The position numbers and the translations under genes were made by a program. The notes beneath the pieces are model-generated. The model was not told the origin of the DNA, did no database searches, and saw only the letters and a list, made by a program, of their open reading frames with translations. This document shows positions 54,220 through 60,434 of a DNA stretch of 64,000 nucleotides, one piece after another. This DNA is from an uncultured Thermoanaerobaculia bacterium (GTDB lineage: Bacteria > Acidobacteriota > Thermoanaerobaculia > Multivoradales > Multivoraceae). The stretch covers positions 2,768,859 to 2,832,858 of the forward strand of contig OX638294.1 in assembly GCA_951812325.1 (NCBI GenBank), read 5' to 3'. Every line of letters begins with the position of its first letter. The stretch's first letter is position 1.

Positions 54220-55529
54220 ACGGTCCCCTGCCGGACCTCTACCCGGTTCGGCGCGCCGGGTGCGTTGCAGGTGTCGTCGAGCCCCCGGGTTCGAAGAGCA
54301 TCTCGCATCGGGCGTTGAACCTGGCGCTGATCGGGCAGCGGCCCGTGACGATCGAGAATCTCCTCGACGCGGAGGACATCGCCGCCTTCTCCAACGCCCT
54401 GAAGCGTATGGGCTGGCAGATGGAGCGCGTCTCCGGCGCCGAGGTGCGGATCGAACCGCCTGGCGGGCCGCCCGATTCGCCGGTACGGCTGGACTGCCGG
54501 AGCGCGGGGACGCTGTTGCGGTTCCTGGTCGCGAGTTGCGCGGTGACGCCGGGCGAGTGGATTGTCGACGGGTCGCCCCGGTTGCGTGAGCGACCGATCG
54601 GACCACTCCTCGACGCTCTGCGTCAACTCGGCTCGAGCGTTGACGAGCTTGGCCGGGCCGGCTGCGCGCCGGTTCGGATCCGGGGCGGCGCGCTGACCGG
54701 CGGTCGAGTCGAGATCGATGCGGGCGAGTCGAGTCAGTACGTCTCCGCGCTGCTCATGGCGGGACTGCGAGCAGAGGGGCCGATCGAAGTTCTCGCGCCC
54801 TTTCTCGTCTCTAGTCCCTATGTGGACACAACTCTCCAGGTCATGGCCGACTTCGGTTGTTCCCTGGCCTCCGGGGGCGCCGGAGGGGCGCGCGAATTCC
54901 GGATGGAACCCCACAGGCCGGAGGCGCCCGCCGGTCGCTATCGCGTCGCCGGCGACGACTCCGCGGCCGCTTACCCGGCCGCGGCGGCGGCGTTGTGCGG
55001 TGGCCGCGTGAAGCTGCGGGGACTGGCTTCCGCGTCGACCCAGGGCGACCGGGCATTCCTCGGGCTCCTGGAGGCGATGGGCGCCGCAGTACGGACGGCG
55101 CCGGGGGAGATCGAGGTCGAAGGCAACGGTCAGCTTCGGGCGCTCGACCGCGATCTCTCCGAGATGCCCGACCAGGTCCCCACGCTTGCCGCGGTGGCCT
55201 CCTTTGCCCACGGCGTCACGACGATTCGCAACGTGGCGCACCTGCGGATCAAGGAGAGTGACCGCCTGGCGGCGATCGGAACCGAGCTGCGCCGGTCCGG
55301 GGTCTCGGTGGAAGAACTGCCGGACGGTCTGCGCATCGAGGGAAACCCTGCTCTGACCGCGGCGCCCGGTTCGCCCCGCATCTCGATCGACACCTACGAC
55401 GATCACCGCATCGCGATGAGCATGGCTCTCGTCGGCCTCCGGCGGGGAGGGCTGTCGATTCGTCGGCCGTCGGTGGTTGCCAAGTCCTACCCCGGCTTCT
55501 GGGCCGACCTGGAGGGGATTGCACCTTGA
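54207..55529 (+). CDS. aroA: 3-phosphoshikimate 1-carboxyvinyltransferase (EPSP synthase)
   Basis: A 440-residue shikimate-pathway enzyme. Marks are [28 protein letters not shown] (the LDxGNAGT region), [72 protein letters not shown] and [14 protein letters not shown]. The GTG at 54207 has AGGGAG 5 nt upstream; a second GTG at 54216 overlaps the previous stop (GTGA). It overlaps the following regulator by TTGA. Confidence 0.95.
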
Positions 55530-58500
55530 CTACTTCCGTCTGCCGTCTACGCCATCAGTCGTTGGAGGCCGTCGCCGCCAACGCGGGAGTGGTCCTTCTC
55601 GCCGAGAGCAACCTGGCGGATCGGCAACGAGCCGCTCTGCTGCTTCAGGGCGCGGCGCTGCTCGCCCATCTGCGAACCGCCGGCTGGCGGTTGCAGTCCT
55701 GGGGAGGACTGCTGGTCGATGGACGGTGCGTGCTCCGTGTCGATCCGGAACTGGTGGCGCCGGCGCGAGCCGAACAGTCGACCCAGATCGAACTGACGCG
55801 ACTCGTGTCCTGTTTGTTCGGGAGTACGGAGATGGCCGGTCGAAGCGCCGTGCGAGCACAGCTCCGGCCGGTGGTCGGGGCCTGGCGGGACCTGCTTCTG
55901 CCTCTGCCGGCTGATCGGCTCGTCGCGGACATTCTGGATCATGCTCCCTTCCTGTGGGAAGGCGCCTACCGGGACGCGAGGCTGTCCCTGCTTGCGGTGC
56001 ACGAACGCGGGGAAGGCGAGGAGGTGGTCGTCGTCGGTCATCCACGGTGGCGTCGGTCCCTGCTGCGGGCCGCCGGCCCCGACCGGGAACGGCTGTCGAA
56101 CGTGGTGGGCAGCGACGAGGCTCGGGACCATTGGCTCGGCGACAAGGCTTCGGGCGGGCCGATCGACTGGATTGCCCGGGGTGATTGGCGGCGAGCGCTG
56201 GAGGAGTCCCTGCGAGAGCCGATCGTCGGGCCGGCCGAGCGGAGCGCGGTGGCGCGGGCATTCCTCGACGGGGGCCGGTTCAAGGCGGCGCTGGCACTGG
56301 TCGAGCGCTCCCGGCGAACGGAGGACATCCTGATTCGGCTCAAGAGTCTGGTGAGGATGGATCGAATGGCCGCAGCACGCCGCGCTCTGACGGCACTTGA
56401 GGGTCGCCGCCTGGTCGGTGCGACGAAGCTGGAGGAGTGCGAGGAGGCGATCAGGATCCATGCGGCCGCGGGTCGCCCGGCTCAGCTCAGGGCCTGGGCG
56501 AAGCAGGCCCTCGAGGCGGCGGTCGGTCCGTATGCCGGTCGGGGCCGGGCACTGGCCTTGCTGGCGCTGCGCGAGGTCGACGGGTCTGTCGAGACGGCCT
56601 CTTCGTCCGACCCGGCGGTCTTGTCCGACCCGGAAGGGAAACCGGCAGACCGGACGGAACCGGCAGACTGGACGTCGTGCCTGGCGCTGGCACGCTTCGC
56701 GATGGACCGCGGGCGCTTCCAGGTTGCTGACGGAGCGCTGGGCACGGCACTGAGGCAGTTCCGAAGAGAACTGCCGATCTACGAGCGTGCCAGCCTGTGG
56801 AACGAGCTGGCGACGCATCGACTCCTGGTGGACGATTGGGCTGGCGCGGAGCGTGCCGCGCGGGTTTCCGTGAAGCTCTTCCGGTGTTGCGATGGACCTG
56901 CCGGGAGGGCCGGTGCGCATGGCAATCTCGCGGAGGCCCGGATTCGCGCCGGCCGCCTGTCCGGCATCCGGGAAACGATCGACAGCCTGCGGCGCGTGAG
57001 TCTGATGGCCGGGAGTGCTGACGGCATGGTCGATGTGCGACAGCTCGAAGCGCGCCTCGACCTGGCGGAGGGTCGGTGGAGTTCGGCCCTGGAATCCTGC
57101 AGGTCCGCTCTGGATGAACTGCGGAAGCGGCAACTGCGAGGAGGCCGGCAGCGAGCGCTTCGCGTACTCTCGAGCCGGGCTCTGGTGCACTTGGGGCGCA
57201 GGCAGGAAGCGCGAGAGGAACTCCTGGCAGCGCTTCCTCTGCCGGTCGGGGATGGCTTCGGGGGCGTGCGAGCCGGAAGCGACGATCTGGCCGCCACCTT
57301 TCTTCTGGTCGGGCTTCGGGAGGAGGCGCGGGCCGTTGCGGCGGGCTCCGCCTGTGCGGACCTGTGGGCGGCGGTCAGTGAGGACCGGGCCCCGGGCAGC
57401 AACGACTGGCAGCGGTTCGAAGACCAGGGGGCCTACCCCTGCGCGCTGGCGATCCACGACCTCGTCTGTCTGGGCGTCGGGAACGTGCCGGTGAGGTTGC
57501 TCGAATCGGCAGTGCACACTCTGGCCGAGGCAGGCGCCGAGCCGCTCGCGCAGCGTGTGGACGCCGCCCGGCGGGGTCCCTGGAGAGCTCTTCGAGCCTT
57601 TCTCGACGCGGAAGAGTTCGACTCGCGGGCGTTCCATGTGTTGCTTGCGGCCGCCGGTCACCCCGAGGCACGGATCGCGGTCCACGAATCCAGCGACGCG
57701 GGAGGACGGGACGAGTCCACGGACGTCCTGCTGGAGGGACCCGGCGGCTCGGAACAGTTCTCGGTCGGTGTACCTGCCGGCAGACTGGTACTGAGTGCAA
57801 ACGGGATCGGGGAGCCGACCCGGGCCCTGCTCACCGTGATCGCTGGCCGGACGCCGGCCGCGTTCGGTCGCCGCCGGGAGTTCCTGGAGGTGGCGGAGGA
57901 GAAAGAGTCGGCGGCGCCTCGCCTGATCGGTCGGAGCAAGCTGTTGCTGGCGGCCCGGGAGCGGGTCGCGAAGCTGGCATTGCACGATCTGCCGGTGCTG
58001 ATTCTGGGAGAGTCGGGCACGGGCAAGGAACTGCTGGCCCGGTGGCTTCACGATTCGAGCGCCAGGGCCGCCGGACCCTGGCAGGCCGTGAACTGCGCTG
58101 CTCTTCCCGAAGGTCTTGTCGTGTCGGACCTGTTCGGTCATCGGCGAGGTTCCTTCACCGGCGCCGACCGGGAACGGATCGGCGTGCTCGAGAGCGGCGA
58201 AGGCGGCACGGTGTTTCTCGACGAGATTGCGGAACTGCCGCTGTCAGCGCAGGCGATGCTCCTGCGGGCCCTGCAGGAGGGCGAGATACGACGGGTCGGC
58301 GAGAGCCGACCACGTCATGTGGACTTCCGTCTCGTTTCGGCGACCCACCGCGATCTCCCGGCCATGGTCGAGGCCGGCGAGTTCAGAGAAGATCTCTACT
58401 ACCGGCTCGGGGTGGCGACCGTGGAAGCTCCGGCCCTGCGCGACCGCGACGGCGACATCATGCTCCTGGCGCACCACTTTCTCGGTTTGTTCAGCGGCGC

Positions 58501-58840
58501 CCGGGAAGCGCAGCGGTTCAGCGAAGACGCGCGCAAGCGGCTGCTCGAGCATCCATGGCCCGGGAATGTAAGAGAACTTCGCAACGTGGTCGAAAGCGCC
58601 GTGGCGCTTGGTGAAGGCTCGGAGATCACGACCGGGGTGCTGGGACTTCCCGGGTTGCCGCGGCGCCCACCCCAGGTGGACGGCGCCAGCTATCACTGGA
58701 AGCTGGAACAGTACCGGCGCGGTCTGATCCGCAAGGCGCTGCAGGACGCCGGTGGCAATCAGGCGCGTGCGGCGCGGGCTCTCGGAATGAGTCGACAGGC
58801 GCTGTCGTACCTGGTGCGAAAGCAGAACTACGCTCTTTGA
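55526..58840 (+). CDS. Very large sigma-54-dependent activator with a TPR-like N-terminal region
   Basis: A 1104-residue protein. The first 790 or so residues are helical and TPR-like (repeated A/L/E/R pairs such as [21 protein letters not shown] and [19 protein letters not shown]) with no receiver, GAF or PAS motif seen. The AAA+ domain follows with Walker A GESGTGKE, the sigma-54 loop GSFTGA (canonical GAFTGA), Walker B GTVFLDEI and the R-finger region. A Fis-type HTH ([24 protein letters not shown]) ends the protein. The TTG start overlaps the aroA stop and has GGAGGGG upstream. It should activate sigma-54 promoters in response to a signal sensed through the TPR-like part. Confidence 0.88.
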
Positions 58841-58855
58841 GGTAGTGTACAAGCT

Positions 58856-58895
58856 ACCGGGCCGGGCCCGGTCTGGTCGTACATTCTGCTATGAT
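58856..58895 (+). promoter_or_regulatory. Palindrome plus extended -10 promoter ahead of the MerR-array gene
   Basis: ACCGGGCC-G-GGCCCGGT (58856-58872) is a perfect 8-bp inverted repeat. It lies just upstream of TGCTATGAT (58887-58895), an extended -10 box. The GTG start of the downstream gene is 69 bp further. The palindrome overlaps the -35 region and is a plausible operator. Confidence 0.5.
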
Positions 58896-58964
58896 CTGTC
58901 AAGCGCGTTCCGAATCAGAGGAACACAGGTACACCGAGTCAGGTCGAAGAGGGGGAATACCGGG

Positions 58965-60434
58965 GTGAGTGCAGCGGCTGCTGGAGGAAGGAACCTGTTG
59001 ACATTGGGTGAGGTTGCGCGCCAGGCGGAGGTCTCCATGGCCACGGCGCAACGCTACAAGAAGCTCTATCAGGATCGAATCCCCTCGGAGGGCGACGGAC
59101 GCAAGCAGCGATACCCGGCCGACGCCGTCAGGATCTTCAAGGAGTTGAAGAAAGAACGGATCTCGAAGCGTGGCGCCGGTCCCGGGCGGAAGCCGCCGAA
59201 GGCTGCTGCCGCCGATGCGGGGCTTCTGACGCTTTCGAGCATCGGCGCACAGACGGGTATCTCCTATCCGACCCTGCAGCGCTACGTGAAGCTGTTCAGC
59301 GATCGGATTCCCCACGAAGGCGTCGGGCGCAAGCGGCGCTACCATCCGGAGTCGGTTGCCGTCTTTCGTCAGCTGCGGGCCGAGAGCAGGCCGGGCCGGA
59401 AACCGAAGGCGACGGCAGCGGAGGCGGCCGGTCCGAAACTGCTCACGTTGACGGCGATAGGCCAGCAGACGGGCATCTCCGGCCCGACCCTGCAGCGTTA
59501 CGTGAAGTTGTACGGTAATCGGATTCCGCACGAGGGGGAAGGCCGGAAGCGGCGCTACTATCCGGAGGCCGTGGCGGTTTTCCGTGAGCTCCGGTCGCAG
59601 AGCAGGCGGGGCCGGAAGCCGAAGGCGACGGCAGCGGAGGCGGCCGGTCCGAAACTGCTCACGTTGACGGCGATAGGCCAGCAGACGGGCATCTCCGGCC
59701 CGACCCTGCAGCGTTACGTGAAGTTGTACGGTAATCGGATTCCGCACGAGGGGGAAGGCCGGAAGCGGCGCTACCATCCGGAGGCCGTGGCGGTTTTCCG
59801 TGAGCTCCGGTCGCAGAGCAGGCGGGGCCGGAAGCCGAAGGCGACGGTCGAGGCCGCTCCGCCCGAGGAGGCCACATCACCCGAGGCCGCTTCGCCCGAG
59901 ACCGCATCACCCGAGGAGGTTTCAACACCCGAGAGGGCCGCCGCACCCGAGGCCCCAACACCCGAGCAGGTCGCAACACCTGAAGAGGCCACGGCGCCCG
60001 AGGACGCCACGGCGCCCGAGAAGGCCGCTGCACCCGAGGAGGCCGCTGCGCCCGAGGAGGCTGCTGCACCCGAGAAGGCCGCTGCACCCGAGGAGGCCGC
60101 TGCGCCCGAGGAGGCTGCTGCACCCGAGAAGGCCGCTGCACCCGAGGAGGCCGCTGCGCCCGAGGAGGCTGCTGCACCCGAGGAGGCCGCTGCGCCCGAG
60201 GAGGCTGCGGCGCCCGAGGAGGCCGCTGCGCCCGAGGAGGCTGCGGCGCCCGAGGAAGCCGCGGCGCCGGCAGGGAAGCCGGAGGCGCCGGCCGCGGAGG
60301 TTCCAGGGAAGGCCGCTTCCGCTGCGGTTCCGGATGGCGTCGAGGCTCGACTGGCTGCCCTCGAGGCCCAGGTGCGTCTGGTGCTGGAGAAGCTCGAGCA
60401 ACCGGTCACGATCACGCTCCGGGCAGACCGTTAG
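58965..60434 (+). CDS. Protein with four tandem MerR-like DNA-binding modules and a Glu/Ala/Pro-rich tail
   Basis: A 489-residue protein. Four modules of about 72-76 residues begin at residues 11, 87, 159 and 231. Each reads LLTLxxIGxQTGIS-x-PTLQRYVKLYxxRIPHEGxGRKRRYxPEAVAVFRELR, a MerR/excisionase-like winged HTH, followed by an AT-hook-like RRGRKPKA linker. Module 1 is most diverged; modules 3 and 4 are almost identical. Residues about 298-435 are imperfect (APEEAA/APEKAA) hexads, acidic and extended. The last 40 or so residues (VEARLAALEAQVRLVLEKLEQ) are a coiled coil. It probably binds DNA as an oligomer, bridging or coating sites. The GTG start has GAGGGGG upstream. Confidence 0.85.
   Translation: MSAAAAGGRNLLTLGEVARQAEVSMATAQRYKKLYQDRIPSEGDGRKQRYPADAVRIFKELKKERISKRGAGPGRKPPKAAAADAGLLTLSSIGAQTGISYPTLQRYVKLFSDRIPHEGVGRKRRYHPESVAVFRQLRAESRPGRKPKATAAEAAGPKLLTLTAIGQQTGISGPTLQRYVKLYGNRIPHEGEGRKRRYYPEAVAVFRELRSQSRRGRKPKATAAEAAGPKLLTLTAIGQQTGISGPTLQRYVKLYGNRIPHEGEGRKRRYHPEAVAVFRELRSQSRRGRKPKATVEAAPPEEATSPEAASPETASPEEVSTPERAAAPEAPTPEQVATPEEATAPEDATAPEKAAAPEEAAAPEEAAAPEKAAAPEEAAAPEEAAAPEKAAAPEEAAAPEEAAAPEEAAAPEEAAAPEEAAAPEEAAAPEEAAAPAGKPEAPAAEVPGKAASAAVPDGVEARLAALEAQVRLVLEKLEQPVTITLRADR
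59403..59834 (+). repeat. 216-bp in-frame tandem duplication
   Basis: 59403-59618 and 59619-59834 are near-identical, exactly 72 codons each. A difference I can see is CTACTATCC versus CTACCATCC. They encode modules 3 and 4 of the MerR-array protein, so one DNA-binding module was duplicated recently. Confidence 0.95.
59860..60270 (+). repeat. Degenerate 18-bp coding repeats (hexapeptide array)
   Basis: Units such as CCCGAGGAGGCCGCTGCG are repeated about twenty times with small changes, encoding PEEAAA-type hexads. This is a variable-length candidate microsatellite within the gene. Confidence 0.92.

Follow-up and report, generated by a model that had tools for sequence, protein, structure and literature searches.

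MerR-like DNA-binding heads normally work as symmetric dimers, and the RacA protein of Bacillus has one head. BldC from Streptomyces has a MerR-like winged helix-turn-helix (wHTH) and forms cooperative oligomers on direct repeats (PMC5859096), and TraN of the Enterococcus plasmid pIP501 carries two winged-helix domains arranged as an internal dimer (PMC6540685). These three are the closest known systems to the predicted protein described here, which is encoded in a 64,000-nucleotide stretch of DNA from an uncultured Thermoanaerobaculia bacterium (referred to below as the window) and which carries four MerR-like modules in one chain. A family in which such heads are strung on a single chain, and which most of an order has kept at a housekeeping locus, would add a further design for organising or regulating DNA.

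Four MerR-like modules in one chain

The gene at positions 58965–60434 of the forward strand is real: the 489-aa open reading frame begins with GTG and has an AGGGGG ribosome site upstream, and the start codon and the VSAAAAG that comes after it (VSAAVAG in a few cases) are kept in 20 other genomes of the window's genus. The product contains four modules of about 62 residues each, with module 1 at 58995–59180 (recognition helix SMATAQRYKK), module 2 at 59223–59408 (SYPTLQRYVK), module 3 at 59439–59624 (SGPTLQRYVK) and module 4 at 59655–59840, all on the forward strand, and Tandem Repeats Finder (TRF) reports modules 2–4 as 2.8 copies of a 72-residue (216-bp) period with a 91% match. The initial annotation had read the sequence as four such modules and had proposed a profile search with one of them as a check. 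All four were found by the module profile (E-values of 3e-28 to 4e-33, with the profile itself containing three of them), the whole protein matches Pfam MerR_1 (PF13411) at 1.5e-13, which is above the cut-off, as well as HTH_17 at 4.9e-12, and the fold matches described below agree with this. No sensor, enzyme or other domain was found in the Pfam search.

AlphaFold models the window protein as four compact modules with pLDDT values of about 90, including module 1, joined by disordered linkers and followed by a disordered acidic tract, and a single module modelled in isolation also reaches a pLDDT of 90 (the pTM of the full chain is 0.27, and the relative placement of the modules is not usable). 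The structural neighbours of the module are the HiNmlR, CadR, SoxR and CueR heads, RacA, GlnR, CbpM, TraN and BldC, with Z-scores of 4 to 7.6 overall and up to 7.1–7.6 against MerR-family heads; these values are middling, as expected for domains so small, and MerR-like heads dominate the match list. The top Foldseek match is the RacA DNA-binding domain (probability 0.99, TM 0.68, E-value 0.09), and the module aligns with TraN at Z 4.5 and with BldC at Z 4.2 (2.7 Å over 49 residues), placing BldC below RacA or NmlR, though small differences in Z carry little meaning. Searches of PDB sequences gave no significant match. The prediction and the structural matches bear out the MerR-like winged fold claimed earlier, and the failure of the modules to fold in this way, which had been named as the point on which the claim could fall, was not seen.

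In an alignment of 21 modules R20 and R39 are invariant, and R20 is the equivalent of BldC Arg30 when residues 1–51 of the model are placed in register with residues 11–60 of 6amk. Arg30 reads a YpG step in BldC and the arginine is also used by RacA (PMC5859096). The modules have a basic wing as well (GRKRRY), and so combine the Arg30 equivalent in the recognition helix with the basic wing seen in BldC. They also have the winged HTH of classical MerR proteins. The long antiparallel dimerisation helix of the latter is absent from the models, in which the post-wing helix is 11–17 residues long and is followed by a linker, and the C-terminal effector-binding domain is absent from both the AlphaFold model and the Pfam matches, with a disordered acidic tract and a 21-residue helix making up the C-terminus instead. 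Because of the fold and these residues, we consider it very likely that each head would bind DNA.

Distribution of the family and changes in module number and charge

Of the 72 genomes of the order (phylum Acidobacteriota), 53 carry a homolog, each as one main copy, and the other 19, some of which are incomplete, have no match; 51 of the 60 nearest relatives match by sequence (some to the acidic tract only). The family is absent from the rest of the 396 genomes sampled across the phylum, except that one family of a different class has a relative with a single module; in these proteins (L065 and L066) a longer region of helical appearance and then another C-terminal segment come after the module. 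Additional, weaker module-bearing proteins, which we regard as paralogues, occur in a few members of the order (G027, G029, G042, G047 and G435).

The family was previously unnamed, and its layout corresponds to none of the families in Pfam, NCBIfam, PHROG or PADLOC. In agreement with the earlier remark that no described system of this kind was known, none was found in these libraries or in the PDB, nor did literature searches on tandem MerR domains, nucleoid-associated proteins in this class, or mad1 find anything. The component parts are already known and it is their assembly that is new. It should be noted that the PADLOC mad1 profile matches all four modules singly (2.6e-21) and is likely to produce a false defence annotation for this family.

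Sequence comparison places a two-module form, with two distinct modules, a basic K/A/P linker and a basic tail, at the ancestral position. In the phylogenetic tree, the sequences of module 1 (SMPTLQRYKKLYQDRIPSxGxGRKQRY) fall into one order-wide clade and those of module 2 (SYPTLxRYVK...GRxRRF) into another (support 100/99), and the two have remained separate and conserved since the ancestor of the order. Modules 2, 3 and 4 of the window's genus form one clade (95/84) in which module 3 arose from module 2 at the level of the genus, and module 4 then arose from module 3 in the window by a near-perfect 216-bp duplication (227 of 230 bp identical at an offset of 216, with 98% protein identity). 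The recognition helices differ among modules 1, 2 and 3, yet each is kept by position. Three modules were counted in every other genus member read, with an assembly gap interrupting one of these proteins, and only the window has four, which it combines with an acidic tail. The initial annotation was thus right to see multiple heads per chain, although the four-module layout itself is a local elaboration of a two-module family.

The linkers of the window protein (PGRKPPKA, RPGRKPKA, RRGRKPKA and RRGRKPKA) are basic, and about 10 residues separate module 2 from 3 and 3 from 4; the inter-module linker of the two-module relatives is 20–89 residues long. Described earlier as AT-hook-like, the window linkers have GRK where the AT-hook core has GRP and hence are not true AT-hooks. 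The KRGRPRK found after module 1 in two-module relatives resembles an AT-hook in sequence but scores below the Pfam AT_hook cut-off (14.2 compared with 17.4 bits in one of them).

A tract of about 23 copies of an 18-bp repeat (59850–60262, forward strand; identified by TRF) encodes acidic hexads of the APEEAA type and is predicted to be disordered, with pLDDT around or below 50. As another frame of the same DNA reads RPRRPL, we considered whether the tract might be a frame-shifted basic tail; however, 15 aligned repeat units show 21 minor differences, 17 of them at third codon positions when read in the acidic frame, which marks this frame as the one under constraint rather than as a shadow ORF, and the mostly synonymous differences rule out the frame shift (pairwise synonymous and non-synonymous differences number 147 and 61 in the acidic frame compared with 45 and 175, and 0 and 220, in the other two, noting that the repeats are not independent). 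In place of the basic tail of the relatives (in L002, for example, KRRRARKARPRRK), the window protein has GKPEAPAAEVPGK and the acidic repeats. Because of this exchange its charges almost balance (73 K/R and 70 D/E residues, pI 8.7), whereas all 23 tabulated relatives have a pI of 10.5–11.7 and K/R-rich linkers and tails. The acidic hexad tail noted initially is therefore present in the window but is not the general design, as the tail is basic in the two-module form placed as ancestral.

The chain closes with a helix, VEARLAALEAQVRLVLEKLEQ (60333–60395, forward strand; residues 457–477 in the AlphaFold model), and then a conserved PxTITL end. The helix is conserved within the genus, and in form across the order. 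The C-terminal coiled coil proposed earlier is not supported by the model, which shows a single helix of only 21 residues there.

Promoter, leader and neighbouring genes

The best sigma-70 promoter reaches p ≤ 0.05 in 20 of the 34 upstream regions of the family (against shuffles that kept base composition only), often as TTGACA-17-GATAAT, whereas the five neighbour genes put through the same test, with approximated start codons, each had 0 to 4 such matches. The presence of a near-consensus promoter in most families suggests high constitutive expression. The window's genus is without the strong -35/-10 seen elsewhere and has an extended -10 element instead, TGCTATGAT (58887–58895, forward strand), and the TTCTGCTAT block hardly varies across 21 genomes of the genus. 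Directly downstream lies an inverted repeat, GTTCC-N8-GGAAC (58907–58924), which is a candidate autoregulatory site; TTCC...GGAA-like arms, though imperfect, are found at the same place in relatives. Inspection of the leaders by eye found no direct-repeat operator. A second palindrome, ACCGGGCCGGGCCCGGT (58856–58872), had been proposed as DNA for a binding test, but it is not conserved in 20 relatives from the genus and we reject it as an operator. It sits directly past the stop of the preceding gene, where a transcript end is likelier than an operator, and it is probably the end of that gene.

Across nine families the gene order is conserved as aroA, a sigma-54-type activator, the multi-module gene and then the convergent thiL-like, lon and nrdR genes, with a convergent lon no more than three genes away in 31 of 35 loci, and in the window's genus hrcA, grpE and dnaJ are found beyond nrdR. 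The activator (window positions 55526–58840) matches Sigma54_activat at 1.6e-63 and has GSFTGA in place of GAFTGA, and its long N-terminal half is largely unassigned (possibly TPR). It was not found in two members of the genus, in which an unrelated gene precedes the multi-module gene. An obligatory functional pairing of the two can be ruled out, as either gene occurs without the other in several genomes.

Possible functions and comparison with known systems

We favour the explanation that this is an abundant chromosomal DNA-binding protein of the architectural or global-regulator type with many linked heads, and give it about an even chance of being correct. The basic flexible linkers, strong promoters, single conserved copy and lack of a sensor domain all point in this direction, and the wHTH fold, the invariant arginine, the basic relatives and the conserved locus also count in its favour; against it, the window protein is nearly neutral and its genus lacks the strong -35/-10. 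The recognition helix of each module would sit in a major groove, with the basic wing reaching into the minor groove next to it, flexible linkers would let two (ancestrally), three or four heads hold adjacent or separate sites, and the conserved C-terminal helix may join chains together so that segments of DNA would be coated or bridged. We infer a role in organising the nucleoid, one of the two roles that the initial annotation had suggested. The lasting difference between the recognition helices of modules 1 and 2 speaks for some choice of sequence; these two modules probably recognise half-sites that are not alike, so that binding would be at least partly sequence-selective, and their conservation as distinct modules since the ancestor of the order is as compatible with specific sites as with general packing. 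With the basic linker and tail gone from the window lineage, its extra heads may serve as compensation, and DNA binding may be weakened by, or face competition from, the acidic tail; that this tail acts as an internal DNA mimic tuning binding is speculation. Replacement of HU was ruled out, as every one of the 60 relatives searched has HU, and the lack of a match in 19 of the 72 genomes of the order means that the multi-module protein is not indispensable.

The main rival is a sequence-specific regulator acting at a limited number of promoters, possibly including its own, in which the modules would lie head-to-tail on direct repeats as in BldC but covalently joined, with extra modules lengthening the footprint. 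Varying numbers of BldC wHTHs line up head-to-tail on 9-bp direct repeats (PMC5859096), the module model can be aligned with BldC, and the recognition helices of modules 1–3 are different but conserved by position. This arrangement is most plausible for modules 2 to 4 because their spacing of only about 10 residues is short enough for adjacent sites, but the longer linkers of the two-module relatives are too loose to dictate tandem packing, the leaders have no evident direct-repeat operator, and the structural match is weaker than that to RacA or NmlR, to the extent that such small gaps mean anything. We see it as a credible but less probable explanation, and favour the architectural or global role over it. 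Chromosome anchoring or segregation in the manner of RacA, with heads at origin-near sites and the C-terminal helix on a polar or membrane partner, is suggested by the top Foldseek match, by the similar plan of an HTH and a C-terminal helix, and by the position of dnaA (G000:C1:2727900-2728382), which is about 40 kb before the window start and about 99 kb from the multi-module gene. However, dnaA is about 0.3 Mb away in two relatives with both genes on one contig, making origin proximity weak as a conserved trait, the NCBIfam RacA scores are 24.5 and 16.9 bits compared with a cut-off of 165, and the helix is short, which leaves this explanation unlikely.

Two further possibilities come from the neighbourhood and from profile matches. 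The MerR-like fold, weak HspR profile matches and synteny with lon and, farther off, hrcA, grpE and dnaJ might indicate a heat-shock regulator of the HspR kind, but the profile score is 20.6 bits compared with a cut-off of 105, HAIR-like sites are rarer in the genome than a reversed control with none at the genes of the lon and hrcA–grpE–dnaJ neighbourhood, and HrcA is present as the usual regulator; with the HAIR search negative, HspR was rejected, and we give such a role very little credence. Even less probable is an excisionase or repressor array derived from a phage or mobile element, despite PHROG excisionase and PADLOC mad1 profiles matching the modules, as there were no matches in the phages, plasmids and viral contigs searched and the gene has a fixed housekeeping locus in nine families.

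Returning to the architectural or global role, the near-identical modules 3 and 4 and the exchange of a basic for an acidic tail provide a natural series (two, three or four heads with basic or acidic tails) in which the influence of valency and tail charge on DNA binding and bridging could be tested. More tentatively, this may be a bacterial chromatin family that tunes its grip on DNA through head number, from two to three to four, and tail charge, with the window species just past the last step.

Of the known systems, BldC is similar in being a small MerR-like wHTH without an effector domain, with the equivalent arginine, a basic wing and several heads in a row on DNA. However, BldC is a single 68-residue module that oligomerises only on DNA, whereas the family has two to four modules that are not stand-alone wHTHs but are covalently joined by disordered linkers and followed by a C-terminal helix. 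RacA shares the MerR-like head and the plan of a linker and C-terminal helix, but its family profile is below cut-off and there is no sign of polar anchoring in the multi-module family. TraN also has two MerR-like winged DNA-binding heads in one chain, though those of TraN form an internal dimer at a plasmid operator, in contrast to the two to four modules on flexible linkers seen here. CarH and the MerR-family regulators have the same wHTH fold, and CarH likewise puts several MerR heads on one operator, but the multi-module family has neither an effector domain nor an antiparallel dimerisation helix after each module. Finally, basic-tailed nucleoid proteins include those with H1-like tails and AT-hook proteins, and resemble the family in their K/A/P-rich disordered basic linkers and in the RGRP-type motif of the two-module relatives; the family differs from them in its ordered multi-wHTH core, and in the window form the basic tail has been lost and an acidic one gained.
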